Made by a program: the position numbers and the translations under genes. The notes under the pieces were generated by a model that searched no databases, was not told the origin of the DNA, and worked only from the letters and a program-made list of their open reading frames with translations. This document shows positions 2,557-52,890 of a stretch of DNA of 64,000 bases, one piece after another. The first letter of the stretch is position 1, and the number at the start of each line of letters is the position of its first letter. This DNA comes from Hydrogenophaga sp. (GTDB taxonomy: Bacteria; Pseudomonadota; Gammaproteobacteria; Burkholderiales; Burkholderiaceae_C), in contig NZ_JAUCZG010000001.1 in assembly GCF_030373225.1 (NCBI RefSeq), positions 1-64,000 on the forward strand. Reading direction: 5' to 3'.

Positions 2557-3417
2557 ATGTTCGTCATCATCGGTCTTGTCGTTTCGATGCTTTGCATCTT
2601 CGGCGTCTACATCTTCCACGGCGGCAACATCGCGGTGGTGCTCAAGGCGCTGCCGTTCGAGATGACGACCATCCTTGGCGCAGCGCTGGGCGCCTTCATC
2701 ATCAACAACCAGATGAAGGTGGTGAAGGCGGCCCTCAAGGGGCTGGCGGGCTGCTTCAAGGGCAGCCGTTACACCAAGGCCCGCTACCTCGAACTCATGG
2801 CGCTGCAGTACGACATTCTGCAAAAGGCCCGCAAGGAAGGCCTGATGGCGATCGAGCAGGATGTGGAGAACCCGCACGAGTCGGCGGTGTTCAAGAAGTA
2901 CCCCACCATCGCCGCCGACCACCACGTGGTCGAGTTCATCACCGACTACCTGCGCATGATGGTCTCGGGCAACCTCAACGCGCACGAGATCGAGTCGCTC
3001 ATGGACAGCGAGATCGAAACCCACCACCAGGAAGCCCATGCCCCGGTGGCCGCGATCGGCCGCCTCGCCGGTGGCCTGCCGGCCTTCGGCATCGTGGCCG
3101 CCGTGCTGGGTGTGATCAACACCATGGGTTCGGTGGGCCAGCCGCCCGCCATCCTCGGCGGCATGATCGCCTCGGCCCTGGTGGGCACCTTCCTCGGCAT
3201 CCTGCTGGCCTACGGCGTGTTCGAGCCACTGGGCGGACTGATGGACCAGAAGGTGGAGGAAAGCAGCAAGGAATTCCAGTGCATCAAGACCACGCTGCTG
3301 GCCAGCATGCAGGGCTACGCCCCCGCCACAGCCATCGAGTTCGGCCGCAAGGTTCTGCTGTCTGATGTTCGGCCCACGTTCAACGAACTCGAAGCCCACG
3401 TCAAGGGCAAGAAGTGA
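2557..3417 (+). CDS. motA: Flagellar motor stator protein MotA
   Basis: MotA is the proton-channel stator subunit in the inner membrane that pushes on FliG to turn the rotor. The 286-residue protein has four hydrophobic segments (about residues 1-20, 32-52, 168-190 and 202-225), and the large cytoplasmic loop contains the charged stretch ARYLELMALQYDILQKARKEG. The motif GRLAGGLPAFGIVAAVLGVI contains the conserved prolines next to the channel. The stop TGA overlaps an ATG (TGATG) that opens a repeat-derived mini-ORF leading to motB. First gene of the motA-motB-cheY-cheZ unit, probably FliA-dependent. Confidence 0.97.
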   Translation: MFVIIGLVVSMLCIFGVYIFHGGNIAVVLKALPFEMTTILGAALGAFIINNQMKVVKAALKGLAGCFKGSRYTKARYLELMALQYDILQKARKEGLMAIEQDVENPHESAVFKKYPTIAADHHVVEFITDYLRMMVSGNLNAHEIESLMDSEIETHHQEAHAPVAAIGRLAGGLPAFGIVAAVLGVINTMGSVGQPPAILGGMIASALVGTFLGILLAYGVFEPLGGLMDQKVEESSKEFQCIKTTLLASMQGYAPATAIEFGRKVLLSDVRPTFNELEAHVKGKK

Positions 3418-3542
3418 TGCACCCCCCGCGCGCCTTCGGCGCTCCCCCCTGGGAGGGGGGCGGCGGCTTGGGCCGGCGGAGCCGGACCCTCGACGCCCTT
3501 GGTCTGGGGCACTTCATGCGCTGCGCTTTAAAAGGAGGCTGA
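3417..3542 (+). repeat. Intergenic repeat copy B with mini-ORF bridging motA to motB
   Basis: The 126-base motA-motB gap is a repeat copy (GCACCCCCCGCG, CGCCTTCGGCG palindrome, CCCCCCTGGGAGGGGGG hairpin, GGGCCGGCGGAGCCGG). It forms an open frame of 41 codons. The ATG at 3417 overlaps the motA stop (TGATG) and the TGA at 3540-3542 ends one base before the motB ATG at 3544. The peptide is low-complexity (MHPPRAFGAPPWEGGGG...) and is unlikely to be a working protein. The arrangement suggests ribosome hand-over from motA to motB. Confidence 0.7.
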
Positions 3543-3543
3543 C

Positions 3544-4527
3544 ATGGCCGGAGCTGGAAAGAAGCTTCAACCGATCATCATCAAGCGCATCAAGAAGAGT
3601 GGCCACTCGGCTCATGGTGGCGCCTGGAAGATCGCCTACGCCGACTTCGTGACGGCCATGATGGCGTTCTTCCTGCTCATGTGGTTGCTCGGATCCACCG
3701 CCAAGGGCGAACTCGACGGCATTGCCAGCTATTTCCAGTCACCGGTGAAGGTCTCGCTCATGGGCGGTCCGGGCACCGGCAACAGCAGCAGCATCCTGCC
3801 CGGTGGCGGGCGCGACCTGAGCAAGGCGTTCGGTCAGATGGACAGCGGCGACAAGGAGCGTGCCGCCAAGGTGATGGGTGCGCAGATGGCCCAGGAGGCC
3901 AAGGCCCGCCAGGAGGCCGCGCGGCTCGATGCGCTGGAAGAGAAGATCGCCGCGATCATCCAGAGCAACCCCAGGCTGGCCGAGTACGGCTCGCAGATCC
4001 AGCTGGAAAAAACCACCGATGGCCTGCACATCCAGATCGTCGACCAGCAGAACCGCCCGATGTTCGACACCGGCAGTTCGCTGGTGAAGCCCTACATGAG
4101 CGAGATCCTGCGTGAAATCGGCGCCGCACTGAGAGACGTGGACAACCGCATCGCCCTGGCCGGCCACACCGATGCCACGCCCTATGGCAGCGGCGAGCGC
4201 GGCTACAGCAACTGGGAACTCTCGGCCGACCGCGCCAATGCCTCGCGGCGTGAACTGATCTCGGGGGGCTTGCCCGACGACAAGCTGCGTCGCGTGGAAG
4301 GTCTGGCCTCCAGCCGCTTGTTGCGCCCGGAAACGCCCACCGATCCGATCAACCGGCGCATCAGCATCGTGGTGATGACGCAGGCGGCCGAAGACCGCAT
4401 GGCGCCCGGCGCGGTTTCTGCAGTCGTGGCCCCGCCGGCCAGCGCACCGCCTGACGAGACCTCCACCGCGCCATCGCTTCAGATTCCCGCTGATGTGACG
4501 AAAACAACCCCAGGGAGCGGTGGCTGA
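3544..4527 (+). CDS. motB: Flagellar motor stator protein MotB
   Basis: MotB anchors the stator to peptidoglycan and carries the proton-binding aspartate. The 327-residue product has the basic N-terminus KRIKKSGHSAHGGAWKIAY followed by ADFVTAMMAFFLLMWLLGS, the single membrane helix with the conserved Asp. The C-terminal half is an OmpA/MotB peptidoglycan-binding domain, seen in IALAGHTDATPYG, NWELSADRANASRREL and NRRISIVV. A Pro/Ala/Thr-rich tail of about 45 residues follows. AAAGGAGG lies 5 bases before the ATG. It is coupled to motA through the mini-ORF at 3417-3542. Confidence 0.97.
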   Translation: MAGAGKKLQPIIIKRIKKSGHSAHGGAWKIAYADFVTAMMAFFLLMWLLGSTAKGELDGIASYFQSPVKVSLMGGPGTGNSSSILPGGGRDLSKAFGQMDSGDKERAAKVMGAQMAQEAKARQEAARLDALEEKIAAIIQSNPRLAEYGSQIQLEKTTDGLHIQIVDQQNRPMFDTGSSLVKPYMSEILREIGAALRDVDNRIALAGHTDATPYGSGERGYSNWELSADRANASRRELISGGLPDDKLRRVEGLASSRLLRPETPTDPINRRISIVVMTQAAEDRMAPGAVSAVVAPPASAPPDETSTAPSLQIPADVTKTTPGSGG

Positions 4528-4575
4528 GCAGCCGCCGTCTCCACCCCACCTTCCCACCCGCCCTCGGAGGCCTGC

Positions 4576-4962
4576 ATGTCCACCCCGATGAAATTCCTGA
4601 TCGTTGACGACTTCTCCACCATGCGCCGCATCGTGCGCAACCTGCTGAAAGAAATCGGCCATGCCGATGCCGACGAGGCCGAGGACGGCGCCATCGCCTT
4701 GAACAAGCTGCGCAATGGCGCGTTCAACTTCGTGGTGTCCGACATCAACATGCCCAACATGAACGGCTTCGAACTGCTCGCTGAAATCAAGAAGGACGAG
4801 AAGCTCAAGCACCTGCCGGTGCTGATGGTCACGGCCGAAGCCCGCAAGGAAGACATCGTGCTGGCTGCCCAGAGCGGCGCGGCTGGCTACATCGTCAAGC
4901 CCTTCACCAAGGCGACGCTGGAAGACAAGCTGGCCAACATCTTCAAGAAGCTCGGCATTTGA
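4576..4962 (+). CDS. cheY: Chemotaxis response regulator CheY
   Basis: Single-domain receiver that, when phosphorylated by CheA, binds FliM and switches motor rotation. The 128-residue length is exactly that of CheY. Key residues are visible: Asp11 and Asp12 (acid pair in [15 protein letters not shown]), phospho-acceptor Asp56 ([10 protein letters not shown]), Thr86 (VTAEA) and Lys108 (VKPF). No output domain. It lies in the motA-motB-cheY-cheZ unit. The histidine kinase CheA, CheW and receptors are not in this window. Confidence 0.97.
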
Positions 4963-4974
4963 AAGGACGCTGCC

Positions 4975-5586
4975 ATGACACACGATGAAGCAGCGACACC
5001 CGGCCACCCCCAGATGTTCCAGAAACTGGGCTCGATCACGCGCCAGTTGCACGACGCGCTGAAGGAGCTGGGCTACACCGACAAGCTCAAGGGAACGGTC
5101 GACCAGCTCCCCGACGCGCAAAGCCGCCTCTCCTACATCGCCCGCCTCACCGGTGAAGCGGCCGAGAAGGTGCTCAACCATGTGGAGCTGGGCAAGACCG
5201 AGCAGGGCCTGATCGCCGAGCGCGGCCGCCAGCTGGCCGACACCATCTCGCGCGTGCCGGCGCTGGCCAAGGCCATGCCCGAACTGATGGAATGGACGAA
5301 CGACATCGTCAAGACCAGCGAGCAGACCGATGCGCGCCTGACCGACATCATGATGGCGCAGGATTTCCACGACCTCACCGGCCAGGTGATCGCCCGCGTG
5401 GTGCAGCTCGCAGGAACGATAGAAGAACAACTGCTCAGCCTGTTGCTGCAGTCGGCTCCCTCGGGCCAGCCCGGCCAGGACCAGGCCTACGAACTGGCCG
5501 GCCCGGTGGTCGACGCCGAAGGCCGCACCGATGTGGTCAACGACCAGAAGCAGGTGGACGACCTGCTCGCCTCGCTGGGCTTCTAA
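4975..5586 (+). CDS. cheZ: Chemotaxis protein phosphatase CheZ
   Basis: CheZ dephosphorylates CheY-P and ends the tumble signal. The 203-residue protein is mainly helical. It contains AQDFHDLTGQVIARV, where the Asp and the Gln of QDxxDxTGQ form the family active site. The C-terminus ends in a separate short helix, KQVDDLLASLGF, the CheY-binding tail. It starts 12 bases after cheY with AAAGGA upstream, so the two are co-translated. Last gene of the mot/che unit; a 253-base gap follows before flhB. Confidence 0.96.
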   Translation: MTHDEAATPGHPQMFQKLGSITRQLHDALKELGYTDKLKGTVDQLPDAQSRLSYIARLTGEAAEKVLNHVELGKTEQGLIAERGRQLADTISRVPALAKAMPELMEWTNDIVKTSEQTDARLTDIMMAQDFHDLTGQVIARVVQLAGTIEEQLLSLLLQSAPSGQPGQDQAYELAGPVVDAEGRTDVVNDQKQVDDLLASLGF

Positions 5587-5633
5587 TCCCCAAGCCCGGA
5601 CCCCGTAGCCACGCAAGCCCACCAAGCCCGCAA

Positions 5634-5711
5634 GCTTGGGGCGGCTGGGTGCGCTGCGCAGCGAAGTCAAGGGGGAGGCGGCTCCAGCCGCCGGAGGACA
5701 TTCGCGGAGCA
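5634..5711. repeat. Repeat-like palindromic element in cheZ-flhB gap
   Basis: Within the 253-base gap 5587-5839 a GC-rich block contains a GCGCTGCGCAGCG palindrome, AGTCAAGGGGGAGGCGG and a GGCGGCTCCAGCCGCC hairpin. It resembles the other intergenic repeats but in a different arrangement. No mini-ORF links cheZ to flhB here. The rest of the gap (5712-5839) becomes less GC-rich (CTTATCGCGCTTTAGTTTTC) and probably holds the flhB operon promoter, though I cannot assign hexamers. Confidence 0.5.
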
Positions 5712-5839
5712 GCGCGCCCAGGCGCCACGAGCCCGAAGAGGCGCATCCGAGAAAAGCACCCGTTCACCGAGCCTTATCGCGCTTTAGTTTTCCCCAGCGG
5801 ATTCCAGAATCGGATTCACCGATCACGTGAGCCCGCTCC

Positions 5840-6997
5840 ATGGATACCTCCAGTCAAGACAAGAACCTGCCCGCCACCGCGCAACGCCTGAAAAAGGCGC
5901 GCACGGACGGCCAGGTGCCGCGTTCCAAGGACCTGTCCAACCTCACGGTGCTGGGCGGCGGCTCGCTGCTCTTGCTCGCGCTCGCCCCCATGGGTTTCGA
6001 GAAGCTGCGCACCACGCTGCAAAGCCAGCTGCGTTTCGACAACGTGTCCGTGCGGCAACCCGACCAGATGCTGCAGCGCCTGGTGGACGGCTTCTCGCAG
6101 GGCCTCATGCTCTACCTGCCGCTGGGCGTGCTGGTGCTCGCGGTGGCCATCGCCGCCACGGTGGCCGCCGGCAGCTATGCCTTGAGCAGCAAGCCGCTCA
6201 TGCCCGACCTCGGCCGCCTGAATCCGCTCAAGGGCATCGGCCGCCTGTTCTCCAAACAGCAACTGGCCGACACCGCCAAGCTGTTCGGCATCACGGTCGT
6301 GGTGGGCCTGGTGGCCTGGCAGTTCATCGGTGCCCACGCCGAGCTGTTTGCCACGCTGGTGATGCAGCCCCTGGAGTCCGGCATCGGCCAGCTCGCCAGC
6401 TGGCTCATGACAGGTGTGGGCCTGCTGCTCGCGGTGGTGACCTTCTTCGCCGTCCTCGACGTGCCCTTGCAGAAATACCTGCATGCCCAGCAACTCAAGA
6501 TGTCGCTGCAGGAAGTGAAGCAGGAGCACAAGGAAGCCGAGGGCGATCCGCACGTGAAGTCGCAACGCCGCGCGCGCCAGCGCGAAATGGCCCAGCGCAA
6601 CAGCGTGGGCGCGGTGCCCAGGGCCGACCTGGTGGTGATGAACCCGACCCACTACGCGGTGGCGATCCGCTACGACGATGCCTCCATGAACGCGCCGCGC
6701 GTGGTGGCCAAGGGCGCCGACCTGATCGCGCTGAAGATCCGCGACGTGGCCAAGGCACACAACGTGCCGGTGCTGCAGTCGCCCATGCTGGCGCGTGCGC
6801 TCTACGCCCACGCCGAGCTCGACGGCGAGGTGCCCTCTGCCCTGTACACCGCCGTGGCCCAGGTGCTGGCCTACGTGTACCAGCTCAAGGCCGCCATGAA
6901 AGGCCAGGGCGCCATGCCCGGCGACATGCCCACGCCGCAGGTGCCGCCCGAGCTCGACCCGCACTTCAAGAAATCCGCCACGAAGGACTCCGAATGA
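5840..6997 (+). CDS. flhB: Flagellar type III export switch protein FlhB
   Basis: FlhB is an inner-membrane part of the flagellar export gate and switches substrate from rod/hook to filament type. The 385-residue protein has four membrane helices in its first about 210 residues and a cytoplasmic C-terminal domain with the self-cleavage motif Asn268-Pro-Thr-His in VVMNPTHYAVAIRYD. The start MDTSSQDKNLPATAQRLKKAR is typical (KTE-like, sets of charged residues). It overlaps flhA by ATGA. First gene of the flhB-flhA-flhF-flhG-fliA block. Confidence 0.97.
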   Translation: MDTSSQDKNLPATAQRLKKARTDGQVPRSKDLSNLTVLGGGSLLLLALAPMGFEKLRTTLQSQLRFDNVSVRQPDQMLQRLVDGFSQGLMLYLPLGVLVLAVAIAATVAAGSYALSSKPLMPDLGRLNPLKGIGRLFSKQQLADTAKLFGITVVVGLVAWQFIGAHAELFATLVMQPLESGIGQLASWLMTGVGLLLAVVTFFAVLDVPLQKYLHAQQLKMSLQEVKQEHKEAEGDPHVKSQRRARQREMAQRNSVGAVPRADLVVMNPTHYAVAIRYDDASMNAPRVVAKGADLIALKIRDVAKAHNVPVLQSPMLARALYAHAELDGEVPSALYTAVAQVLAYVYQLKAAMKGQGAMPGDMPTPQVPPELDPHFKKSATKDSE

Positions 6998-19726: not shown

Positions 19727-20488
19727 ATGAGCACCGACTACATTCTCGAAACGCGTGAACTCACCCGGGAGTTCAAGGGTTTTGTCGCGGTTGACAAGGT
19801 CAACCTGAAGGTCCGGCGGGGCTCGATCCACGCGTTGATCGGGCCCAACGGTGCCGGCAAGACCACGATGTTCAACCTGTTGACCAAGTTCCTGCCCGTG
19901 ACCTCGGGCAAGATCTTCTACAAGGGCGAAGACATCACCAGCCACAAGGCGGCCGAGGTGGCGCGCACGGGCATGGTGCGGTCGTTCCAGATCTCGGCGG
20001 TGTTTCCGCACCTCACCGTGCTGGAGAACGTGCGCATCGGCCTGCAGCGCAAGCTGGGCACCAGCTTTCATTTCTGGAAGCCCGAGTCCAGCCTGTATGC
20101 GCTCAACGACGAAGCCATGGCGCTGCTGGAGCAGGTCGACCTGGGCAGCTTCGCGCAGACGCAGACGGTGGAGCTGCCCTACGGCCGCAAGCGCGCGCTG
20201 GAGATCGCCACCACGCTGGCGCTGGACCCCGAACTGATGCTGCTGGACGAACCCACGCAGGGCATGGGCCACGAAGACGTGGGCCGGGTGGTCGAACTGA
20301 TCCGCAAGGTGGCCGCCAACCGCACCGTGCTCATGGTGGAGCACAACATGAACGTGATCGCCAACCTCTCCGACACCATCACGGTGCTGGCGCGCGGTTC
20401 GGTGCTCGCCGAGGGCCCGTACGAAACCGTGTCGAAAGACCCGCGGGTGCTCGAAGCCTATGTCGGCACGGTGGAGGAAACACAATGA
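19727..20488 (+). CDS. livG: Branched-chain amino acid-type ABC transporter ATPase LivG
   Basis: A 253-residue ATP-binding subunit of a LIV/HAAT-type importer. Walker A GPNGAGKTTMFNLLTKF, the Q-loop region, the Walker B stretch ELMLLDEPTQGM and the H-loop MVEHNMNVI are all present. The signature loop reads VELPYGRKRALEIATTLALDP instead of LSxGQ, as is usual for LivG. Substrate may be branched-chain amino acids or another small amide/acid; the sequence does not decide. The stop overlaps a start codon (ATGA at 20485) of a 22-codon mini-ORF that leads to livF. Confidence 0.93.
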   Translation: MSTDYILETRELTREFKGFVAVDKVNLKVRRGSIHALIGPNGAGKTTMFNLLTKFLPVTSGKIFYKGEDITSHKAAEVARTGMVRSFQISAVFPHLTVLENVRIGLQRKLGTSFHFWKPESSLYALNDEAMALLEQVDLGSFAQTQTVELPYGRKRALEIATTLALDPELMLLDEPTQGMGHEDVGRVVELIRKVAANRTVLMVEHNMNVIANLSDTITVLARGSVLAEGPYETVSKDPRVLEAYVGTVEETQ

Positions 20489-20553
20489 GCGCAGCGCCGG
20501 GCCGCCCCAAGCCAGCGCGCACCGCCGTGCGCAGCGCGGAGGTTTCTCGATGA
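20485..20553 (+). repeat. Mini-ORF bridging livG and livF (repeat-like)
   Basis: The 61-base gap between livG and livF forms a 22-codon frame. Its ATG (20485) overlaps the livG stop and its TGA (20551-20553) overlaps the livF ATG (20550), ATGA at both ends. The stretch GCCGGGCCGCCCCAAG is shared with the repeat-rich gspE-gspF and gspK regions (opposite strand). The SD-like GCGGAGG for livF lies inside the mini-ORF. Probably a translational coupling device rather than a functional peptide. Confidence 0.6.
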
Positions 20554-28981: not shown

Positions 28982-29161
28982 ATGAAACACCCCCGCCGCG
29001 CTTCGCGCGACCCCCTCAAGGGGGCGGCACCAGCGGCCCGGCAAAGCCGGTTCCGCGGTGCCCCTGGACGAAGGCCTTTCAGGCGCGGCGATGCCTCTTG
29101 TCGAAGCCACCTCGCACGCACCGGCGTCCGCCATTCAAGGAGCTCTTCATGGACCGTCTGA
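28982..29161 (+). repeat. Intergenic repeat copy D with mini-ORF bridging flgE to flgF
   Basis: The repeat proper is 28982-29068: ATGAAACACCCCCGC, GCGCTTCGCGC palindrome, CCCCCTCAAGGGGG hairpin, CCGGCAAAGCCGG hairpin, GTGCCCCTGG. Its ATG lies 4 bases after the flgE stop and opens a 59-codon frame. The frame ends with TGA at 29159-29161, 12 bases inside flgF, so it spans the flgF start codon at 29149 in another frame. The predicted peptide begins MKHPRRASRDPLKGAAPAAR. The flgF SD (AAGGAG, 29138-29143) lies within it. Confidence 0.7.
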
Positions 29162-31458: not shown

Positions 31459-31593
31459 ATGAAGCACCCCCGCCGCACTGCGTGCGACCCCCTCAAGGGG
31501 GCGGCGCTGGTGGCCCGTCCTGAGCTTGTCGAAGGGCGGTTCCGCGGCGCCCCTGGATGGCTACCTTTTGCTCCGGATCAGTTGGAATCATGA
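31459..31593 (+). repeat. Intergenic repeat copy E with mini-ORF bridging flgH to flgI
   Basis: The repeat (31459-31558) reads ATGAAGCACCCCCGCC, a GCACTGCGTGC palindrome and a CCCCCTCAAGGGGG hairpin. In place of the usual GGCAAAGCC hairpin it carries CCTGAGCTTGTCGAAGGGC, a second widespread repeat type. The ATG opens a 44-codon frame (MKHPRRTACDPLKGAA...) that starts 11 bases after the flgH stop. The frame ends with TGA at 31591-31593, one base before the flgI ATG at 31595. Confidence 0.72.
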
Positions 31594-31594: not shown

Positions 31595-32713
31595 ATGAAA
31601 ATCGACCGCTTCTTTCGCTGCCTGGTGGTTTTGTGCGGAGTGCTGACACTCTGGCCGGCCGCCGCGCAGTCGATCCGCATCAAGGAGATCGCGGCGGTGC
31701 AGGGTGTGCGCAGCAACCAGCTCACCGGCTACGGCCTGGTGGTGGGGCTGGACGGCACGGGCGACCAGACCACGCAGATGCCCTACACCGCGCAGAGCAT
31801 GAACAACTACCTGCAGCAGCTCGGCCTGTCGCTGCCGCCGGGTGCGAACATGCAGCTGAAGAACGTGGCGGCGGTGCTGGTCACGGCGCAGCTGCCGGCC
31901 TTCGCCCAGCCCGGCCAGACCATCGACGTGACGGTGTCTTCCATCGGCAATTCCAAATCGCTGCGCGGCGGCACGCTCATCACCACGCCTCTCAAGGGAG
32001 CCGACGGTGAAATCTACGCGCTGGCCCAGGGCAACCTGCTGGTGGGTGGTGCAGGTGCGTCGGCCGGTGGCAGCAAGGTGCAGATCAACCACCTGAGCGC
32101 GGGCCGTGTGCCCGGTGGCGCGCAGGTGGAACGTGCGGTGGCCACCCCGTTCGCCCTGGGCGAGACCATCGACCTCGGTTTGAACTCGAGCGACTTCCAG
32201 ACCGCCAGCCGCGTGACCGACGCGATCAACCGCACCATGGGCGCCGGCGTGGCCAGCGCGATCGACGGCCGCGTGGTGCGCCTGCAGGCGCCCGCCGACC
32301 CCGGCGCGCGCGTGAGTTTCCTCGCCCGCGTCGAAGAGATCCGCCTGGACGCTGCCGTGCCGACGGCCCGCGTGATCATCAATTCGCGCACCGGCTCCAT
32401 CGTGATGAACCAGGCGGTGAGCCTGGGCGCCTGCGCGGTCTCGCACGGCAACCTCTCGGTGAGCATCAGCTCCACCCCGGTGATCAGCCAGCCCAACGCC
32501 TTGTCCACCGGCGGCCAGACCGTGGTGACCGAGCAGGCCAACATCCAGATCAGCCAGGACAAGGGCTCGCTGATCACGCTCGACACCGCGCCGCAGCTCG
32601 CCGACGTGGTGCGCGCCCTCAATTCACTGGGCGCAACGCCCCAGGACCTGCTGGCCATCCTGCAAGCCATCAAGGCGTCTGGCGCGATGAACGCCGAACT
32701 GGAGGTCATATGA
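31595..32713 (+). CDS. flgI: Flagellar P-ring protein FlgI
   Basis: FlgI forms the periplasmic P-ring bushing around the rod. The 372-residue precursor has a signal peptide (about residues 1-22, ending WPAAAQS). The conserved opening is IRIKEIAAVQGVRSNQLTGYGLVVGLDGTGDQTTQMPYTAQSMNNYL, and GNAKSLRGGTL-like (GNSKSLRGGTLITTPLKGADG) and VVTEQANIQISQ segments follow. The ATG at 31595 is chosen by the signal peptide. The stop TGA (32711-32713) overlaps an ATG that opens the next repeat mini-ORF. Confidence 0.97.
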   Translation: MKIDRFFRCLVVLCGVLTLWPAAAQSIRIKEIAAVQGVRSNQLTGYGLVVGLDGTGDQTTQMPYTAQSMNNYLQQLGLSLPPGANMQLKNVAAVLVTAQLPAFAQPGQTIDVTVSSIGNSKSLRGGTLITTPLKGADGEIYALAQGNLLVGGAGASAGGSKVQINHLSAGRVPGGAQVERAVATPFALGETIDLGLNSSDFQTASRVTDAINRTMGAGVASAIDGRVVRLQAPADPGARVSFLARVEEIRLDAAVPTARVIINSRTGSIVMNQAVSLGACAVSHGNLSVSISSTPVISQPNALSTGGQTVVTEQANIQISQDKGSLITLDTAPQLADVVRALNSLGATPQDLLAILQAIKASGAMNAELEVI

Positions 32714-32892
32714 ACCCCCCCGTCGCTTGCTCACTGCGTGTAGCCGCATCCCCCCTCCAGGGGGCAATACCTGCGCCCCGGCGGAGCCGGTTGCGCGGTA
32801 TTTCTGAACGCGCGTTTTCGCCCTCCGGGCTGAGCTCCCCTCCGTTCGGGCTGAGCCTGTCGAAGCCCTTGCAAGGTCCAGTCCGGCCATGA
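32710..32892 (+). repeat. Intergenic repeat copy F with mini-ORF joining flgI and flgJ by double ATGA
   Basis: A 60-codon frame fills the 175-base gap between flgI and flgJ. Its ATG (32710) overlaps the flgI stop as ATGA, and its TGA (32890-32892) overlaps the flgJ ATG (32889) as ATGA. The sequence is a diverged repeat copy (ATGAACCCCCCC, CCCCCCTCCAGGGGG hairpin, CCCCGGCGGAGCCGG). It is followed by a nested TCGGGCTGAGCCTGTCGAAG-type repeat (about 32844-32873). The peptide is low-complexity (MNPPVACSLRVAASPLQGAI...). Annotated as a coupling element, not a working protein. Confidence 0.72.
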
Positions 32893-35695: not shown

Positions 35696-35854
35696 ATGAA
35701 ACACCCCCTGCGCCGCTGCGCGGCTTCCCCCTCTCTGGCGCCTTCGGCCTGGAAGGGGACGGCATCTTGGGCCGGCGGAGTCGGACCCTCGTTGCCCCTG
35801 GACGAAGCCCGGCTCGCGCGCCGTTCGCTGGCAAGCCGAAGCCTGATCGTTTGA
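35696..35854 (+). repeat. Intergenic repeat copy G with mini-ORF bridging flgK to flgL
   Basis: Repeat of the B/D type: ATGAAACACCCCCTGCGCC, GCGCCGCTGCGCGG palindrome, CGCCTTCGGC, GGGCCGGCGGAGTCGG, TTGCCCCTGGACGAAG. The ATG is one base after the flgK stop and opens 52 codons (MKHPLRRCAASPSLAPSAWK...). The TGA at 35852-35854 lies inside the flgL SD (TGAGGA), 9 bases before the flgL ATG at 35864. Confidence 0.72.
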
Positions 35855-43561: not shown

Positions 43562-43678
43562 TCAAGGTTCTGTCGCCGGGCCGCCCCAAGGCGGAACAGC
43601 CCCCGGACCCGGCATTGACCGGGGCCCTTGCCCTTCCTGGGGCAGCGACCCGCGAAGCGGTGAGCGTGGGGGCCTCAT
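43562..43678 (-). repeat. Intergenic repeat with mini-ORF bridging gspE to gspF
   Basis: Read on the minus strand it starts ATGAGGCCCCCACGCTCACC, followed by CGCTTCGCGGGTCGCTGCCCC and two further GC-rich palindromes. The ATG (43678) is 3 bases after the gspE stop and opens 38 codons. The TGA (43564-43562) is 6 bases before the gspF ATG. The frame start MRPPRSPLRGSLP parallels the gspG-gspH and gspK repeat copies (PPRSTAVRVAAP and PPRCAAARLAAP). Confidence 0.7.
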
Positions 43679-45134: not shown

Positions 45135-47321
45135 TCACTGCGCGGGAGTGGTGGGAGGCAGCGGCACCGCGGGCGGGATCAATGGCGGTGACGACTGGGG
45201 ATTGGCCAGCGAAGGCGCCTGTGGCGTGAGCGACATCGAACCCGGCGACTGCGGCGCCGGCATGATCGGCGACTCGTTGATGCCGAGCACGCTGCTGGGC
45301 CTGGGCTGGGCGTCCTGCTGGACCGAACGCATGAGTTCGTAACGGTCGAGTGCCAGGCTGGTGGTGGCACGGGAATCGCGCACGACCACCGGCCGCAGGA
45401 ACACCATGAGGTTGGTCTTGCGGCGCGAACGGGTTTCGCTCTTGAAGAGGTTGCCGAACAGGGGCACGTCCCCGAGGCCGGGCACCTTTTCCTGGTTGCC
45501 GGAGTATTCGTCCTGCAGCAGGCCGCCGAGCACCACGATGGCGCCGTCGTCGACCAGCACGGTGGACTCGATCGTTCGTTTGTTGGTGATCAGTCCGGAA
45601 GTGGAATTGACGGAGGACGCCTGCACACTGCTGACCTCCTGGTAGATGGTCATCTTGATGGTGCCGTTCTCGCTGATCTGCGGCTTCACGCGCAGCGTCA
45701 GACCCACGTCCTTGCGTTCGATGGTCTGGAACGGGTTGACCGAGCCCTCGTTGCTGCCGGTGTTGGTGAACTGGCCGGTGACGAAGGGCACGTTCTGGCC
45801 GATCACGATCTTGGCTTCTTCGTTGTCCAGCGTCAGCAGGTTGGGCGTGGACAGGATGTTGCCTTCGCCACTTTCCTGCAGGAAGCGCGCGAGGAAACCC
45901 AGTACGTAGACGCCATTGGTCTGGCGGGCCAGGCCGAAGTTCAGGCCGGAGGCCGGCGCGCTGTTGCCTTGGGCGAGGTCCACGATGTTGCGCCCGCCGG
46001 TGCCGAAATTGGTGCCGAGCAGGCCGATGAGCCGGTCGCCCGAGTTGCCCAGGGCGCCCTGCCACTGGATGCCGAACTCGCTGGCCTTGTCGGCGTTGAC
46101 CTCGGCGATCAGGCTTTCCACATACACCTGCGCACGGCGCGAGTCGAGCTGGTCGATCACGGCACGAAGTTGGCGGTATTGCGGCTCGGGCGCGGTGATG
46201 ATGAGCGAGTTGGTGGCCGGGTCGGCCTGGATCTGGCCACCGGTGGACGGCTGTGCACTGGCCGACACCGGGGCGCTGGACGGGTTGCCACCGGCTGCGC
46301 CGGCCGGGCGGACCGCTCTGACGGTGCCACCGTTGCTGCCGGAGGCGGCCGATTCACCCGCCATCGCTGCCCGCAGGGTGGCGGCCAGGGAGACGGCGTC
46401 CGCGTTTTTCAGATACACGACATGGATGTTGCCGCTGACGTTGGCCGACGAGGGCTGGTCGAGCCGGGCCACGAGGTTGCGCACCAGCGCCAGACGCGCC
46501 GGGTTCGCTGCGCGCAACACGAGGCTGTTGCTGCGCGGTTCGGCGATCAGGGTGGTCCTGTAGGAGGCATCGGTCGCGCCGGGGCCGCCCGCCGTCACCG
46601 CCGGATCGATCAGGCGCGACACCAGGCCGGCGAGATCGGCCGCCACCGCGTGTTGCAGCGGAATCACTTCCACGTCGGTGGCACCCGCCACGTCCAGCGC
46701 GGTGATGATGCGGCCGATGCGTTGCAGGTTGTCGGCGTAGTCGGTGATCACCAGCGAGTTGTTGCCGGGATTCACGTTGATCGTGTTGTTGGGCCCGATC
46801 AGGGGGCGCAACACCGGCACGAGGTTGTTGGCCGACTCGTGGTTGAGCCGGAAGATCTGCGTGACGACCTGGTTGGAGGTGGGCAGCGCGTTCACCGAAC
46901 CCGCGTTGACCACATTGCCCTGCAGCTTGGCGTCGGCCTCGGGCACGATCTTGTAGAGCCCCCCGGTGTCGACGATGGAGAAACCCTGCAGGCGCAGCAC
47001 GGCGGCAAACTGGTTGAGTGCGGCGGTGGGCGACACCGGGCGTTCGGTGGCCAGGTTCACGGTGCCCTTGACGCGCGGGTCGACCACGACGTTGCGGCCG
47101 GTGATGGTGGCCATGGTGCGTGCCACCGACTCGATGTCGGCCGCCACGAAGTTCAGGGTGACGGGCTCGGTTTTCTGGTTCTGTGCATGCACGGGTGCGC
47201 CGGCCCACAGGCCGAGCAGCAGCAGCGAGGCCAGTGCAAGTGCGGTCAGTGCCTTGCCGTGGCCTGGCTGCCCGGGGCGCAGGGGCCGGGCGGGGGCGGC
47301 GCGGTTGAGGTTCGGGTTCAT
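45135..47321 (-). CDS. gspD: Type II secretion outer-membrane secretin GspD
   Basis: GspD forms the outer-membrane secretion channel. The 728-residue precursor has a long signal peptide (about residues 1-46, ending GAPVHAQ). The N0 domain follows (VTLNFVAADIESVARTMATITGRNVVVDPRVKGTVNL), then N1-N3 and the secretin domain (VPFVTGQFTNTGSNEGSVNPFQTIERKDVGLTLRVKPQISENGTI, VLGGLLQDEYSGNQEKVPGLGDVPLFGNLFKSE). The C-terminal tail of about 75 residues is Pro/Ser-rich. The ATG at 47321 overlaps the stop of a 13-codon mini-ORF; a GTG at 47357 is possible but would lengthen the signal region. Confidence 0.96.
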   Translation of the reverse strand: MNPNLNRAAPARPLRPGQPGHGKALTALALASLLLLGLWAGAPVHAQNQKTEPVTLNFVAADIESVARTMATITGRNVVVDPRVKGTVNLATERPVSPTAALNQFAAVLRLQGFSIVDTGGLYKIVPEADAKLQGNVVNAGSVNALPTSNQVVTQIFRLNHESANNLVPVLRPLIGPNNTINVNPGNNSLVITDYADNLQRIGRIITALDVAGATDVEVIPLQHAVAADLAGLVSRLIDPAVTAGGPGATDASYRTTLIAEPRSNSLVLRAANPARLALVRNLVARLDQPSSANVSGNIHVVYLKNADAVSLAATLRAAMAGESAASGSNGGTVRAVRPAGAAGGNPSSAPVSASAQPSTGGQIQADPATNSLIITAPEPQYRQLRAVIDQLDSRRAQVYVESLIAEVNADKASEFGIQWQGALGNSGDRLIGLLGTNFGTGGRNIVDLAQGNSAPASGLNFGLARQTNGVYVLGFLARFLQESGEGNILSTPNLLTLDNEEAKIVIGQNVPFVTGQFTNTGSNEGSVNPFQTIERKDVGLTLRVKPQISENGTIKMTIYQEVSSVQASSVNSTSGLITNKRTIESTVLVDDGAIVVLGGLLQDEYSGNQEKVPGLGDVPLFGNLFKSETRSRRKTNLMVFLRPVVVRDSRATTSLALDRYELMRSVQQDAQPRPSSVLGINESPIMPAPQSPGSMSLTPQAPSLANPQSSPPLIPPAVPLPPTTPAQ

Positions 47322-47359
47322 GGCGCGATCGTAAAGGTAAGTGGGGGGCTGGAACACAT
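47318..47359 (-). promoter_or_regulatory. 13-codon mini-ORF bridging gspN to gspD
   Basis: The 45-base gap between gspN and gspD holds a frame starting with ATG at 47359 (7 bases after the gspN stop). Its TGA (47320-47318) overlaps the gspD ATG (47321) as ATGA. No repeat sequence is involved, and no good SD precedes gspD, so coupling to this mini-ORF could be how gspD is started. Confidence 0.5.
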
Positions 47360-48161: not shown

Positions 48162-48164
48162 GAA

Positions 48165-48712: not shown

Positions 48713-50020
48713 TCAGGGGGCGGGTGGCCCGATGGCCAGTTCGTTGCCGTCGAAACGCGCGCGCCAGCCCGCTCTCTCGAGGGTTTGCTGCAGCGCGCGC
48801 AACTGGTCTTCGGTGGCGCGCCAGCCGGCGAAACGGCCGTCACCCGGCGTGTGGTTGACCGAGCCGGGCATGTAGCTCTCCCCACCTGAGGCCTGCGCGA
48901 TCGCCCCCAGCAGGGTTTCGAGATCGCCCACCGACAAGGCGCCGGCGGCCTGCTGCAGGCGACTGAGCTCGCGCTCCATCTGCACCGGGGCGTCCAGCAC
49001 CAGGGTGACCTGGGGAAAGGTCTGCTGCAAGGTCTGGCGCACGGCAGCCTGTTTGGCTTGCAGGGCGCTGTTCTCGCTCCACGCGGCGGCGTTGAGGCCG
49101 ACCAGCTGCACGCCCACCAGGGCTGCCAGGCCCCAACGGGCCGGTCGCCAGGCCGGCGCGCTGCGCCATTGGCGAAAGCTGCGACGCAAGCGCTGGCCGC
49201 GGCGGGCGTTGGCAGAGAGGCTGAGGTCGAACTGCGCCAGGTTCCACTCGGATTGCGAGCAGCGCAGCAGCCATTGCGGCTGGGCGACCAGTTCGAAGCG
49301 CCGGCCCAGCACCCGCTCGGCCAGGGCGGACACGCCCGGGTCGGCCAGCCAGATGTCGTATTCGGCCTCCATCGGCGCTTCGGGCGAAGGGGGCATGAGG
49401 GCGGTGATGGCGGCCACGCTGGCACTGCCGCCGGCGCCGCTGGCGGCCTCCAGCAGCGGCGTGCAGCTCACGCCCAGCACGCTGGAACTGCCCAGCCAGG
49501 CCTCACCGGTCTCGCCGTGTGCCCAGTGGATGGTGGAGGGAATGTCGAGCTCGAAACTGCGCGAGGCGCCCGCCGAGGCCACCTGGGCTTCGGACTGCAC
49601 CAGCGGCCACATCGAGGGCACGATGCGCGTGACCGGTCGGCCGGCACCTTCAAGGATCTGCAGCCAGCTGCGCAACCAGGTCTTGTGGCAGACCGCAACC
49701 CACACCGCCTGGCCGGACTTGCCGCCGGGCTCGAGGGCGAAATGCAGCTCGCCCACGTCGGCCAGCAGGCGGTCTTCAAGCAGGCCTTCGAGCGCGGCCC
49801 GCAGGCGCGTCGAGGCGACCTTGGGCAGGGCGACGCGGTGCCAGGACACGGTTCGCGGGGGCAGCACCAGCACCACCTCCTCGTCTCGCGGCAGCAAGGA
49901 CGCGGCGCTCTGGCCGACGTCGTTGATCTGCTGGCCATTGCCCGAAGAAGCCCAGTCGAACAGGGCCGAGGCGGGTGTGGGGGTCGAGACGGAAAAGTCC
50001 GCTGGGGTGAGGATCAGCAC
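48713..50020 (-). CDS. gspL: Type II secretion protein GspL
   Basis: GspL links GspE to the inner-membrane platform. The 435-residue protein has an actin-like cytoplasmic domain (about residues 1-260, with VVLVLPPRTVSWHRVALPKVASTRLRAALEGLLEDRL), one membrane helix near 290 (WGLAALVGVQLVGLNAAAW) and a periplasmic coiled-coil/ferredoxin-like domain. The start codon is GTG (50020), one base after the stop of a mini-ORF that links it to gspK. No strong SD is seen before the GTG, which makes translational coupling plausible. Confidence 0.94.
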   Translation of the reverse strand: MLILTPADFSVSTPTPASALFDWASSGNGQQINDVGQSAASLLPRDEEVVLVLPPRTVSWHRVALPKVASTRLRAALEGLLEDRLLADVGELHFALEPGGKSGQAVWVAVCHKTWLRSWLQILEGAGRPVTRIVPSMWPLVQSEAQVASAGASRSFELDIPSTIHWAHGETGEAWLGSSSVLGVSCTPLLEAASGAGGSASVAAITALMPPSPEAPMEAEYDIWLADPGVSALAERVLGRRFELVAQPQWLLRCSQSEWNLAQFDLSLSANARRGQRLRRSFRQWRSAPAWRPARWGLAALVGVQLVGLNAAAWSENSALQAKQAAVRQTLQQTFPQVTLVLDAPVQMERELSRLQQAAGALSVGDLETLLGAIAQASGGESYMPGSVNHTPGDGRFAGWRATEDQLRALQQTLERAGWRARFDGNELAIGPPAP

Positions 50021-50021
50021 G

Positions 50022-50138
50022 TCAGGGTGTGGGGCAGGGCGCGGGGCCCGGGTCGCACCATTCTAGAGAGCCTGTGTGACGGGCAGTCAAAAAGTTGCGG
50101 CTCCAGCACGGGCCGTTGTTGGGGCCGCACGTCAACAT
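50022..50138 (-). promoter_or_regulatory. 38-codon mini-ORF bridging gspK to gspL
   Basis: The 123-base gap gspK-gspL contains a frame from ATG at 50138 (5 bases after the gspK stop). It runs to TGA at 50024-50022, one base before the gspL GTG (50020). The peptide begins MLTCGPNNGPCWSRN. I do not recognise the intergenic repeat here, so the bridging pattern is not only a by-product of the repeat sequence. Confidence 0.5.
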
Positions 50139-50143
50139 CGGTC

Positions 50144-51238
50144 TCATGGCCGGGCAAAGCGCTCGCGCCAGCTCACCCGCACATCGAGGTTGTTGCGCAC
50201 GACCAGCGAGCGTTCTTCGATGACGGCGTTCTCCAGCCGAAGACGTCCGCGCACCTCGAAATAGCGGCTGCGCGTGCCGTGGGCATCGTCGTTGAGCTTG
50301 CCCGCGGTGGCCGGCACCGCCTGGCTCACATCGCCGAGGTTCTTGAACGGATTGCGTTCCCGCGCCGCCACCACCTGGCGCGCCTGCGCCATGTCCAGGC
50401 CCGGCAGGCTGGCGTGGATGGCCTGCGGACTGGCGGTGTTGAGGTTCAGGCTGGAGCGTTCGGGCAGCACGGTGACATGGGGCTCCAGCGCGGCCAGGCT
50501 CGCGCGGCTGATGCCCAGCCAGCCGAGGTGCGACAGCTTGCGGGGCAGCAGCGCGGTGCGTGAGGGCAGGGGATCGGTCAGACCTTGCTGTGTGGTGTTT
50601 CTCAGCTCGTCCACCGCATTGGTGAGTTCCACCACCGGCAGGCCAAGCTGCTCGAAGAGGCGGGTGAAGGCGTTGAGGTCGGCTTCGGAGGTTTCTGCCC
50701 TGGCCGTGGCGCCGCCGCCAATGGTTCGCACGAGGTTGGTGAAATTCAGGCGCGACTGCAAGTCGATCATCTCGCCCGAGAGAAAGGCCTCCAGGGTGTC
50801 GTCGGTGTTGTTGTTCTTGTCGGCGGCCAGAAAGCTGGACAGCCGCGCTTCCTCCAGCGGCAAAGCCCAGGGTTCACCCAGGTGGTCGGAGTTGCCGCTG
50901 GTCTGGTTGCTTCGGGCGTCCTCGCGCAGGATCAGCCGGGCCCAGTCGAGCGCCCCTGTGAGGATCCAGCCCGCCTGCACCCGCTGGCGCTCGGCCTGCT
51001 CGACCTCGGTGGAGCGCCATTGTTGCCACAAGGCGGCCGACGCGAGCGTGGCCACCAGGGTCACGGTGAGCATCGCCAGCAGCAGTGCCGCGCCGCGCTG
51101 GCTCTTTCCGCGCGCTGCGAGCCGCGCAGCGGTGGAGCGTGGGGGCCCTGTCTCGCCGCCGGGCCGCCCCCAGGCGAGACCGCCCCCTTGGGGGGCAGCG
51201 AGCCGCGCAGCGGCGCAGCGTGGGGGCCATTCCTTCAT
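50144..51238 (-). CDS. gspK: Type II secretion minor pseudopilin GspK with repeat-derived N-terminus
   Basis: GspK is the large minor pseudopilin at the pseudopilus tip. The 364-residue product has QRGAALLLAMLTVTLVATLAS, the prepilin-type cleavage region and helix, and the large inserted domain typical of GspK, ending with a helix-hairpin-helix-like part (LNLNTASPQAIHASLPGLDMAQARQVVAARER). The only usable start is the ATG at 51238, overlapping the gspJ stop (ATGA). This places about 45 residues encoded by a double intergenic repeat (MKEWPPRCAAARLAAPQGGG...STAARLAARGK) before the cleavage site. There is no alternative ATG, GTG or TTG between. Normal leaders are about 10 residues. Confidence 0.93.
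   Translation of the reverse strand: MKEWPPRCAAARLAAPQGGGLAWGRPGGETGPPRSTAARLAARGKSQRGAALLLAMLTVTLVATLASAALWQQWRSTEVEQAERQRVQAGWILTGALDWARLILREDARSNQTSGNSDHLGEPWALPLEEARLSSFLAADKNNNTDDTLEAFLSGEMIDLQSRLNFTNLVRTIGGGATARAETSEADLNAFTRLFEQLGLPVVELTNAVDELRNTTQQGLTDPLPSRTALLPRKLSHLGWLGISRASLAALEPHVTVLPERSSLNLNTASPQAIHASLPGLDMAQARQVVAARERNPFKNLGDVSQAVPATAGKLNDDAHGTRSRYFEVRGRLRLENAVIEERSLVVRNNLDVRVSWRERFARP
51114..51229 (-). repeat. Double intergenic repeat translated as the gspK leader
   Basis: Read on the minus strand, GGCCCCCACGCTGCGCCGCT, GCGCGGCTCGCTGCCCCCCA, AGGGGGCGG, then a linker with GCCTGGGGGCGGCCCGGCG. A second partial copy follows, GGGCCCCCACGCTCCACCGC with GCGGCTCGCAGC. The first copy matches the gspG-gspH element. 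It lies wholly inside the gspK reading frame between the ATG and the prepilin cleavage site. Confidence 0.8.
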
Positions 51239-51972
51239 CTCCCGGCCTCCAGGTTGGGGCGCACCCAGTCGCGCAGCAGGGTGCCGCTCAGGCCCTGTCC
51301 GCCGGAGACGGTGAGTTGCAGGCGCACGCCGTTGGGCATGCCGCTGGTGGCGGCCCCGCCCGGGTCGGCGACTTCGGTGCCCAGCGAGGACAGGGGGTTG
51401 CCCCAGGTTTCTCCCCGGTGATAGAAGATTTGCCACTGGTCGATCGCGATGATGGCCAGTGCGCTGTCCGCGCCCTGGTTGACGGTGTTCACTGGCGCCG
51501 GTCCGGCGCCGCGGCCCCAGTCGGCAGCGCGTTGCCAGGCCCGGGCGAGTTCGTCGCGTTGTCGCAGCGGCCCCGACTGCCAGCGCGTCCACTGGCCGCC
51601 AGCCGGCGAGGGCTTCATGGCCCAGGCCACCACCCGCACGCCACGGCTGTCCAGGCCCGATTCGCTGCTGTCGCGCCGCGTGAGGCGCATCGTCTGTCCG
51701 TTGAAGTCCACCGGCGAGACTTCGCCGGTGTCGAGCACCGCATCCAGATCGGCGATCCATTGGCCCACCGCGGATTGCAGGCGCAGCAGCCCGTCGGAGC
51801 GTTCCTGCGTGATGGACTGTGTTCGCGTCATGCCGTCGATGGAGCGCCAGCTCAGCAGGGCCAGCATGGCCATGACGGAAATGGCGACGAGCAGTTCGAT
51901 CAGCGTGAAGCCGCGGGCCACTCGTGTCGTCCAGCGGCGGCCGCGCGGCGAAGGGTGTGGGCGCATGGGCAT
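51235..51972 (-). CDS. gspJ: Type II secretion minor pseudopilin GspJ
   Basis: A 245-residue minor pseudopilin. The prepilin peptidase site is RGFTLIELLVAISVMAMLALLSWRSIDGM with the conserved Glu at +5. The leader before the Gly is about 21 residues, arginine-rich. The body matches the GspJ domain (QSAVGQWIADLDAVLDTG, MRLTRRDSSESG). It starts one base after the gspI stop and overlaps gspK by ATGA. An internal ATG at 51966 could shorten the leader by two residues. Confidence 0.95.
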   Translation of the reverse strand: MPMRPHPSPRGRRWTTRVARGFTLIELLVAISVMAMLALLSWRSIDGMTRTQSITQERSDGLLRLQSAVGQWIADLDAVLDTGEVSPVDFNGQTMRLTRRDSSESGLDSRGVRVVAWAMKPSPAGGQWTRWQSGPLRQRDELARAWQRAADWGRGAGPAPVNTVNQGADSALAIIAIDQWQIFYHRGETWGNPLSSLGTEVADPGGAATSGMPNGVRLQLTVSGGQGLSGTLLRDWVRPNLEAGR

Positions 51973-51973
51973 G

Positions 51974-52342
51974 TCAGTAGCGGCCGATCACGGTGGAAAG
52001 CGTCAGCAAACGCACCGAATTGCCGTCCACATCGCCTTCCACCACCGCATCGATGCGGCGGAAGTTGGGATTGGGCGTGGGCAGCACCGCCAGGCGCACG
52101 CGCAGCTGCCGGCCGGCCTGTTCACAGGCCATGTCGCTGTCGCCCGTGGCGGGCAGCTGCCGCTGCAGGCGCAGACGGGTGAGTTCGTTTTCGGCGCACA
52201 GCTGCGCCAGCCATTGGTCGCTCTGGCGCACGGCCGCCCGCGTGAGCGCGCCGGTGGCCTGCAGTCCGGCGGCCAGGGTGATCGCGATCACCGCCAGCGC
52301 CACCAGCACCTCGATCAGCGTGAAGCCGCGTGGCGCTTTCAC
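51974..52342 (-). CDS. gspI: Type II secretion minor pseudopilin GspI
   Basis: A 122-residue minor pseudopilin that starts the tip complex with GspJ and GspK. The leader is MKAPRG followed by FTLIEVLVALAVIAITLAAGLQATGAL with Glu at +5. The rest contains QLCAENELTRLRLQRQLP, which is typical for GspI. The start overlaps gspH by 4 bases (ATGA). Confidence 0.95.
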   Translation of the reverse strand: MKAPRGFTLIEVLVALAVIAITLAAGLQATGALTRAAVRQSDQWLAQLCAENELTRLRLQRQLPATGDSDMACEQAGRQLRVRLAVLPTPNPNFRRIDAVVEGDVDGNSVRLLTLSTVIGRY

Positions 52343-52800
52343 GGTGCGTCGGGCACGACGGCAAAGGCCGAGATGCCGTCGGTGGCCAGGGTCAGGCGCC
52401 GGTCGCCTTGCTGCAGCACCACACGCTGCGCGGCAATGAGCGGCTCGGGCCCCAGCACCAGGGTCAAGGCGCCCGGGGGCTGGATCACCTGGGCCAGGGT
52501 GTCGGGGCTGATCCAGCTGCGGGGCCCGATCAGGCTGTCGCGCGAGGGCGCACCACTGCGCAGCGGCGGCAGCCCGACAAATTCAAAGCCCTGCGGCAGG
52601 CTGCGCCAGATCACCGGCAGGCCGCTGGTGCGCGATTGCGCGCGCGCCGACTCGATCAATGCCGACAGGCGCAAGGCTTCTCGCTCCAGCCGTGTGGAAC
52701 CATCGTCGCGCAAGGACAAGGTCACCCCGGCCGTGGCCAGCGCCACCAAGGCCACCACCACCATGAGTTCGATCAGGGTGAAGCCCAAGTTGCGTCGCAT
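52339..52800 (-). CDS. gspH: Type II secretion minor pseudopilin GspH
   Basis: A 153-residue minor pseudopilin. The leader MRRNLG is followed by FTLIELMVVVALVALATAGVTLSLRD, with Glu at +5. The C-terminal part (ALRLSALIESARAQSRTSGLPVIWRSLPQGFEFVGL) matches the GspH domain. It lies after gspG, separated by a repeat and a 26-codon mini-ORF whose stop is 9 bases before this ATG. Confidence 0.94.
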   Translation of the reverse strand: MRRNLGFTLIELMVVVALVALATAGVTLSLRDDGSTRLEREALRLSALIESARAQSRTSGLPVIWRSLPQGFEFVGLPPLRSGAPSRDSLIGPRSWISPDTLAQVIQPPGALTLVLGPEPLIAAQRVVLQQGDRRLTLATDGISAFAVVPDAP

Positions 52801-52809
52801 GGGGTCTGC

Positions 52810-52890
52810 TCACAGAAGCCGGAGAGCGCAACAGCCCCCTCGGGGGGCAGCGACCCGCACAGCGGTGGAGCGTGGGGGCACTCCCCTCAT
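52810..52890 (-). repeat. Intergenic repeat with mini-ORF bridging gspG to gspH
   Basis: Read on the minus strand, GTGCCCCCACGCTCCACCGC, GTGCGGGTCGC, TGCCCCCCGAGGGGGC hairpin. The ATG at 52890 overlaps the gspG stop (ATGA) and opens 26 codons (MRGVPPRSTAVRVAAPRGGC...). The TGA at 52812-52810 is 9 bases before the gspH ATG. Confidence 0.72.

Follow-up and report, generated by a model that had tools for sequence, protein, structure and literature searches.

Repetitive extragenic palindromic (REP) sequences and bacterial interspersed mosaic elements (BIMEs) are structured, high-copy, extragenic elements found near stop codons. Mycobacterial interspersed repetitive units (MIRUs) measure 46-101 bp and occupy 41 loci (PMC3914561), and a 2025 review portrays them as seemingly mobile elements that enter at start codons, provide an open reading frame (ORF) coupled at -4, and likely have minimal effect on the genes concerned (PMC12548453). 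Here, we analyze positions 1 to 64,000 of contig NZ_JAUCZG010000001.1 of Hydrogenophaga sp. (this whole 64,000-nt stretch is called the window), in which members of two repeat families, A and B, lie between genes of the flagellar and gsp operons, many of them crossed by short ORFs (mini-ORFs) that link the stop of the upstream gene with the start of the downstream one.

Two further kinds of sequence bear on such junctions. Stable mRNA structures just downstream of stop codons, designated ribosome termination structures (RTS), are reported to be depleted where reinitiation is useful (PMC7518266). In coupled gene pairs, ATGA and TGATG with overlaps of -4 and -1 represent the coupling geometry, and coupling by reinitiation requires overlaps or very short gaps, with ∼20 nt nearly abolishing it (PMC10666635); an insert of ∼100 nt should therefore uncouple two genes, and a relay frame would restore the coupling. 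In the explanation that we favor and consider probable, inserts survive at coupled junctions through either a relay mini-ORF or fusion with the next gene, and coupling is the selected property.

Results

Mini-ORF phase at element junctions

Family A was modeled from an alignment of 21 copies (R1) and family B from 10 copies (R2), each model having 81 positions. Gene calls rest on codon usage, as learned by a script from genes of the window, and all start positions are those of this caller, not of an annotation. At co-directional junctions that contain an element, all ATGs located between 4 nt upstream and 20 nt downstream of the first gene's stop were considered, element copies overlapped by called genes were excluded, and a frame was scored as bridged when it ended between -12 and +9 nt from the next start. 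As a control, 1 or 2 bases were deleted at mid-gap, a change that keeps the composition, the start region, and almost the whole element.

An ATG was present in 20 of the 62 family A junctions, and 13 of these 20 frames were bridged, compared with 1 and 4 after the respective shifts. The family B test, a later replicate, found an ATG in 18 of 28 junctions and bridging in 11 of the 18 (0 and 2 when shifted). When the families were combined, 24 of 38 ATG frames were bridged versus 1 and 6 of 38 after the 1- and 2-nt shifts (Fisher test, 2.9e-9). Ends at exactly -4 were found in 13 of the 38 frames (1 and 4 shifted) and, within family B, in 9 of 18 (0 and 0 shifted); nine family B gaps whose frames end at this position are 79-172 nt long. 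The other 14 of the 38 frames comprise two fused to the next gene (gspK and C43:18080), one that stops 13 nt inside flgF, and 11 that stop 15-115 nt upstream.

Copies outside operons, which had been named as a refuting comparison in an earlier, sequence-only reading of this DNA, differed from those within: an ATG at the stop, before the element, occurred at 38 of 88 co-directional but only 2 of 27 convergent junctions (p = 3e-4; 20/60 versus 0/17 for family A and 18/28 versus 2/10 for family B). When overlapped family A copies were retained, the values were 21/61 and 1/18 (p = 0.017). Among 84 gaps of 50-350 nt that have no element motif, 28 had an ATG and 9 were bridged (4 and 4 shifted, p = 0.054), and among 77 gaps with a motif, a set overlapping those of the phase test, 35 had an ATG and 23 were bridged (1 and 4 shifted). 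Bridged gaps thus made up 23/77 of those with the motif versus 9/84 of those without it (p = 0.003). Bridged junctions elsewhere in the genome include, by NCBIfam matches, mraY-murD, ruvA-ruvB, pheS-pheT, a D-Ala-D-Ala ligase, and narJ (for pheT and murD, the query was incomplete and its score fell below the cut-off), together with others that we take to be fliF-fliG, fliG-fliH, and murA-hisG.

Empty and filled junctions in related genomes

Orthologous junctions of relatives were scored in the primary interval, -12 to +9, which was that of the sequence-only reading, and in a wider one, -14 to +10, picked after stops at -13 had been seen; counts in the wider interval include the row of the genome studied here, except for the flg junctions. 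At livG-livF, five genomes of the genus have an empty ATGA (-4) overlap, and three besides our own carry the same 61-nt insert, with ATGAGC at either end. Two paralogous livG-livF junctions contain independent B-like inserts whose frames end at -1 and -4. All six livG-livF frames are in phase within -14 to +10 (0 and 0 shifted), four of the six sharing one insert. Among 15 motA-motB gaps of at least 45 nt, several of which carry no recognized element, 10 have an ATG; all 10 frames end within -14 to +10 (1 and 0 shifted) and 9 within -12 to +9.

The flg junctions of relatives, a set of 40 rows selected by length and motif, have 23 of 32 frames in phase within -14 to +10, compared with 5 and 4 when shifted. 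A stop at -13 in flgE-flgF is shared by four of five long-gap relatives (the exception is L046), and the flgK-flgL frames of three long-gap relatives end at +9, +17, and +17. At flgI-flgJ (excluding L057, whose start is mis-set), all 14 ORFs, of 42-103 codons, start between -4 and +1 from the flgI stop. Their ends fall at -4 in 13 cases and at -1 in the remaining case, gaps of 125-304 nt keep phase, and the spacings of empty sites are -4 to 8. Five of the 14 (L031, L033, L034, L044, and L055) have no R1 match. A C-terminal segment, G-(M/V/I/L)-L-R, is common to seven of these ORFs (L038, L043, L044, L046, L048, L064, and L066), with many synonymous codon differences as judged by eye.

The gspE-gspF junctions of 15 relatives comprise seven gaps of 92-166 nt, six of 1-12 nt, and two of 31 and 59 nt. 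All seven long gaps have an ATG at the stop, and five of the seven frames end between -1 and +9; the inserts are A-like in some relatives and B-like in others (families assigned by eye) and are read in unrelated frames. This presence and absence of inserts among relatives suggests that the elements may be mobile.

In-frame fusion with the next gene

Some inserts are instead read straight into the downstream gene (gspK, gspJ, or flgH), a second outcome of insertion. In gspJ-gspK, an ATG at 51238 overlaps the gspJ stop and opens 364 codons through the element and gspK. The NCBIfam GspK model reaches the called gspK start at model position 10, which suggests that the true start lies upstream. Among relatives with long gspJ-gspK gaps, 7 of 10 have one frame to about the GspK end, one being cut by the contig end, one containing N, and one unfused. 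Fusion of this kind at gspI-gspJ is seen in at least L379, L386, L387, L391, L393, and L394. At flgG-flgH, an ATG lies near the stop in L031, L046, L056, and L063, and all four frames (247-278 codons) run into FlgH. The elements are in frame in the leader region of the pseudopilins GspK and GspJ (window 51100-51238, minus strand; L379-L396) and of FlgH. Extra residues may be tolerated here, since each of these proteins carries an N-terminal leader or signal peptide that is normally cleaved off.

Copies and structure of the two families

Searches of the genome (4.02 Mb, 52 contigs) place family A at 98 or more sites (E ≤ 0.01) and family B at 131 or more (E ≤ 0.001), the latter forming at least 88 arrays; these are lower bounds, because scoring covered 150 of the 7,274 first-look candidates for A and 150 of the 10,195 for B. 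R1 gave 50 matches in 80 FlgI loci, 49 of them on the sense strand and all within L031-L066; R2 also matched two loci beyond that set, L081 and L090. The predicted fold of family A has three hairpins with 24 consensus pairs, 10 of which show changes on both sides, and two of eight copies folded individually have a z score below -2.

Most family A copies (79/98) begin within 17 nt of the stop codon of a sense-oriented gene. By context, and counting overlapped copies, 64 of the 98 are co-directional, 19 convergent, 12 antisense to both neighbors, and 3 otherwise placed. Context was assigned to 69 of the 88 family B arrays (the other 19 are near contig ends or lack flanking sequence): 28 are co-directional and 11 convergent without gene overlap, and 39 begin within 17 nt of a sense-gene stop, the remaining 30 being antisense, distant from a stop, or inside called ORFs. 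Bridged single-copy family B elements often start at an ATGA, and their far end falls 1-4 nt short of the following one. Among the 12 antisense family A copies, 8 begin 5-15 nt from the start codon of a neighbor, so that the same element edge faces coding sequence in either orientation; the other four are near-alike tandem copies, antisense to both neighbor genes, at C49:18767-19098 (L188).

A second short repeat, CTGAGC(C/T)TGTCGAAG, occurs at window positions 31520 and 32851 on the plus strand, inside one family A copy and after another, and leaves the frame unbroken; within the copy, it forms an extended hairpin loop. The sole Y1_Tnp match found in the genome (C1:107274-107603, L397) sits in a 3.3-kb locus where R1 and R2 give no hit, and we rejected this Y1/RAYT gene as the mobilizer. 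No description of the A or B elements was found in the open-access literature, and no Rfam family matched them at gathering thresholds. The single Rfam match in the window is unrelated, a Betaproteobacteria toxic small RNA (RF02278) at 58635-58700 on the minus strand (54.5 bits, cut-off 50).

Elements and frames of the window

The window has a G+C content of 66.6%, and the closest named species by FlgI is H. palleronii (92%). NCBIfam confirms MotA, MotB, FlgE, FlgF, FlgI, FlgL, GspE, GspF, GspK, and GspG; all other gene names in the window are presumed from sequence and gene order. All ten mini-ORFs described in the sequence-only reading are present (Table 1). The claim that they lie on inserted repeats stands for eight, five on family A, two on family B, and one on the 61-nt livG-livF insert, which neither R1 nor R2 reports and which by eye resembles a reversed family B element. 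It does not stand for gspN-gspD and gspK-gspL, which are element-free and mostly unbridged in relatives (an ATG frame ends within -12 to +9 in 4/16 and 2/17 rows, respectively). The gspJ-gspK element had been missing from that list, and the junctions listed there as unbridged (flhD-flhC, motB-cheY, cheZ-flhB, flgG-flgH, and the gap between SBP and livH) are unbridged in our analysis of the window too. In the gspK-gspL gap, a promoter-like TTGAC...TCTAGAAT stretch, kept in many relatives as judged by eye, suggests an internal promoter.

Table 1. Repeat elements and bridging frames of the window. Each frame entry lists, separated by slashes, the position of its ATG relative to the upstream stop, the number of codons, and the distance of the frame's stop from the next start.
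Feature	Position	Strand	Model match	Frame	Remark
Family A element, flhD-flhC	1749..1829	+	R1 87.7 bits		no mini-ORF; no ATG near stop
Mini-ORF motA-motB	3417..3542	+		-1/41/+1	TGATG start; stop 1 nt before motB
Family A element, motA-motB	3420..3503	+	R1 43.0 bits, E 1e-5
Mini-ORF livG-livF	20485..20553	+		-4/22/-4	on 61-nt insert; ATGA at each end
Mini-ORF flgE-flgF	28982..29161	+		+4/59/-13	stop 13 nt inside flgF
Family A element, flgE-flgF	28988..29068	+	R1 102 bits
Mini-ORF flgH-flgI	31459..31593	+		+11/44/+1	stop 1 nt before flgI
Family A element, flgH-flgI	31465..31557	+	R1 76.6 bits
Mini-ORF flgI-flgJ	32710..32892	+		-4/60/-4	ATGA overlap at each end
Family A element, flgI-flgJ	32715..32808	+	R1 64.7 bits
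Mini-ORF flgK-flgL	35696..35854	+		+1/52/+9	stop 9 nt before flgL
Family A element, flgK-flgL	35703..35802	+	R1 42.2 bits
Mini-ORF gspE-gspF	43562..43678	-		+3/38/+6	stop 6 nt before gspF
Family B element, gspE-gspF	43566..43675	-	R2 67 bits
Frame gspN-gspD	47318..47359	-		+7/13/-4	element-free, background-like; assumes gspD ATG 47321
Frame gspK-gspL	50022..50147	-		-4/41/+1	element-free, background-like
Family B element, gspJ-gspK	51149..51229	-	R2 90.2 bits		after gspJ stop; in frame in gspK leader
Family B element, gspG-gspH	52788..52881	-	R2 67.2 bits
Mini-ORF gspG-gspH	52810..52890	-		-4/26/+9	stop 9 nt before gspH

Discussion

The elements, their placement, the empty sites, and the nonrandom phase and stop position are features read directly from the genomes. 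Selection on the frame and on the placement of its stop is well supported by these features and likely acts through translational coupling; mobility of the elements, ribosome transit across the insert, and coupling as the property selected are what we infer from them. In the proposed mechanism, structured interspersed repeats of ∼80 nt, from two families, would integrate along the 3' margin of genes, in many cases at junctions where stop and start overlap. Between tightly spaced neighbors, copies would tend to persist when the stop-poor repeat is crossed by a frame whose ATG sits at the upstream stop and which either stops on or beside the next start or joins the next gene in frame. A terminating ribosome would restart on the mini-ORF and then again on the next gene, and coupling would thereby be relayed over the insert.

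The sequence-only reading had proposed selection for an open frame and for the position of its stop. Phase and stop position bear this out (24/38 versus 1 and 6), and openness by itself is uninformative, because A and B contain few stops in all contexts: the mean number of stop-free forward frames, out of three, is 2.1-3.0 for A copies and 2.3-3.0 for single-copy B arrays in every context class. Shuffled gaps preserve gap length and therefore phase, so they gauge openness alone; this comparison, too, had been proposed earlier. With the first and last 20 nt fixed, the relatives gave 17 bridged gaps versus 12.0 (reached in 0 of 300 shuffles) and our own genome 13 versus 10.1 (p = 0.053); when the start set was widened to include GTG and TTG and the range to 30 nt, our own genome gave 19 of 62 element junctions versus 17.0 in dinucleotide shuffles (p = 0.29).

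This last result speaks against the phase signal, and several others weigh against relayed coupling. No ATG is found at the stop in 50 of the 88 co-directional element junctions, and exact -4 ends show no excess in family A (4/20 versus 1 and 4 shifted). Within -14 to +10, gspG-gspH (21 rows) has 6 of 14 frames in phase versus 4 and 2 shifted, and at filled flgG-flgH junctions none of the seven relatives in the set has a frame that ends beside the next start (5 lack an ATG and 2 are fused). The flgE-flgF stop, 13 nt inside flgF, is less apt for reinitiation. Shine-Dalgarno scores of bridged genes are not weaker than those of unbridged genes (one-sided p = 0.93), and with scores alike we rejected a weak Shine-Dalgarno sequence as the cause of bridging. 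The start codons are those of our own gene caller, and orthologous junctions across relatives are not independent of one another. At gspN-gspD, the distance hinges on the gspD start (-4 with the ATG at 47321, +17 with that at 47300), and the caller favors a GTG at 47357, which leaves no gap. Finally, the C terminus common to seven flgI-flgJ ORFs suggests that an older small gene may account for part of this junction.

The earlier proposal that the frames restore coupling after insertion therefore holds in part. The phase shifts, the out-of-operon copies, the repeat-free gaps, and the empty sites speak for it; two of the ten junctions are background-like, and the junctions without an ATG, the weak gspG-gspH result, the family A ends, and the similar Shine-Dalgarno scores limit it, as does the fact that protection of the gap from Rho would also select for translation.

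In that last alternative, which we regard as rather unlikely, the mini-ORFs are retained because translation shields the inserted RNA with ribosomes and so prevents Rho-dependent termination within the operon, reinitiation being secondary. C exceeds G on the sense strand (37 versus 27 of 81 in the reference A copy), inserts would leave ∼100-200 nt of mRNA untranslated, any peptide would serve, and the fusions at gspI-gspJ, gspJ-gspK, and flgG-flgH likewise keep the gap translated. However, shielding allows a stop anywhere near the end of the gap, yet 13 of 38 frames stop exactly at -4, and more than half of the co-directional junctions (50/88) have no ATG at the stop. The frequent family B stops at exactly -4 favor coupling over mere Rho protection, although sequence does not separate the two.

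It is less likely still that the arrangement is a by-product of an element that targets and duplicates ATGA and whose length happens to keep phase, with no later selection. The ATGA ends of many single-copy bridged B elements, which begin at ATGA and finish 1-4 nt before the next one, the ATGAGC at both ends of the livG-livF insert, and the confinement of the exact -4 excess to family B all agree with this idea, but lengths vary while phase is kept, as in the nine B gaps of 79-172 nt that end at -4 and the flgI-flgJ gaps of 125-304 nt.

That some mini-ORFs are genuine small protein genes, retained for their peptide, is very improbable. The sequence-only reading had noted that the peptides differ, which is so between junctions and among the other flgI-flgJ ORFs, and inserts of A- and B-like type at gspE-gspF are read in unrelated frames; on the other side stand the G-(M/V/I/L)-L-R segment common to seven flgI-flgJ ORFs, with its many synonymous differences (by eye), and the presence of this ORF in L031 and L034 without an R1 match. 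Chance bridging, from the scarcity of stops in GC-rich DNA and the frequency of TGA in start regions, accords with the stop-poor A and B sequences in any frame and every context, with gspN-gspD, gspK-gspL, and the element-free gaps (9/28 versus 4 and 4), and with an own-genome count no better than shuffles once the wider start set (GTG and TTG, up to 30 nt) is used, but it is hardly credible, and we consider this null, raised in the sequence-only reading itself, rejected for the element junctions, since phase shifts that keep composition and start region lower bridging from 24 to 1 and 6 of 38.

Returning to relayed coupling, we tentatively propose that two sequence-distinct families in one betaproteobacterial genus may each be translation-transparent: stop-poor, situated at stop/start junctions, with an ATG carried or preserved, and read as a relay mini-ORF or an in-frame leader. 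They might thus be able to colonize tightly coupled operons (ruvA-ruvB, mraY-murD, pheS-pheT, narJ, and fliG-fliH) that are closed to other insertions. The questions addressed are the tolerance of insertions within coupled operons and the strength of selection on coupling. Because related species present both empty and filled junctions, in which repeat type and length vary, the dependence on a relay frame can be measured at each junction. For annotators, such ORFs may be relays and not genes. The MIRU principle, given for mycobacteria only in the available portions of PMC12548453 and PMC3914561, would extend to a distant phylum.

Comparison with known systems

In placement after the stop, 79/98 A copies resemble RTS, and they may likewise form stable structures (z below -2 in two of the eight folded), but RTS are not dispersed repeats, and the structure here is crossed by a frame. 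The ATGA and TGATG pairs have the same overlap geometry, which an inserted mini-ORF relays here, sometimes with an overlap at each end. REP sequences and BIMEs resemble A and B in being structured, high-copy, extragenic, and close to stop codons; A and B differ in being mainly sense-oriented and in keeping the phase of the mini-ORF.

The closest likeness in working is to MIRUs, which are also short and interspersed and sometimes tandem, as A and B (81-position models) are, with B in arrays. An ORF coupled at -4 is found in a subset of the elements (13/38 ATG junctions versus 1 and 4 shifted, the excess being in B), and the empty livG-livF site is ATGA. The differences are that the host is a betaproteobacterium with two families, likened to MIRUs by architecture and not by sequence; that family A has three hairpins with covariation (24 pairs, 10 with changes on both sides); that many copies lack an ORF at the stop, and copies also follow stops at convergent ends; and that the elements are placed sense after stops, with fusion as a second outcome. 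MIRUs are not known to have dyad symmetry, and given the dyad symmetry of family A, we do not class A and B as MIRUs, only as elements that work like one. As judged from their architecture, the principle is the same as that of MIRUs, and what is new here is the different phylum, the two families, the strong hairpins in A, the sense placement, and the fusion.

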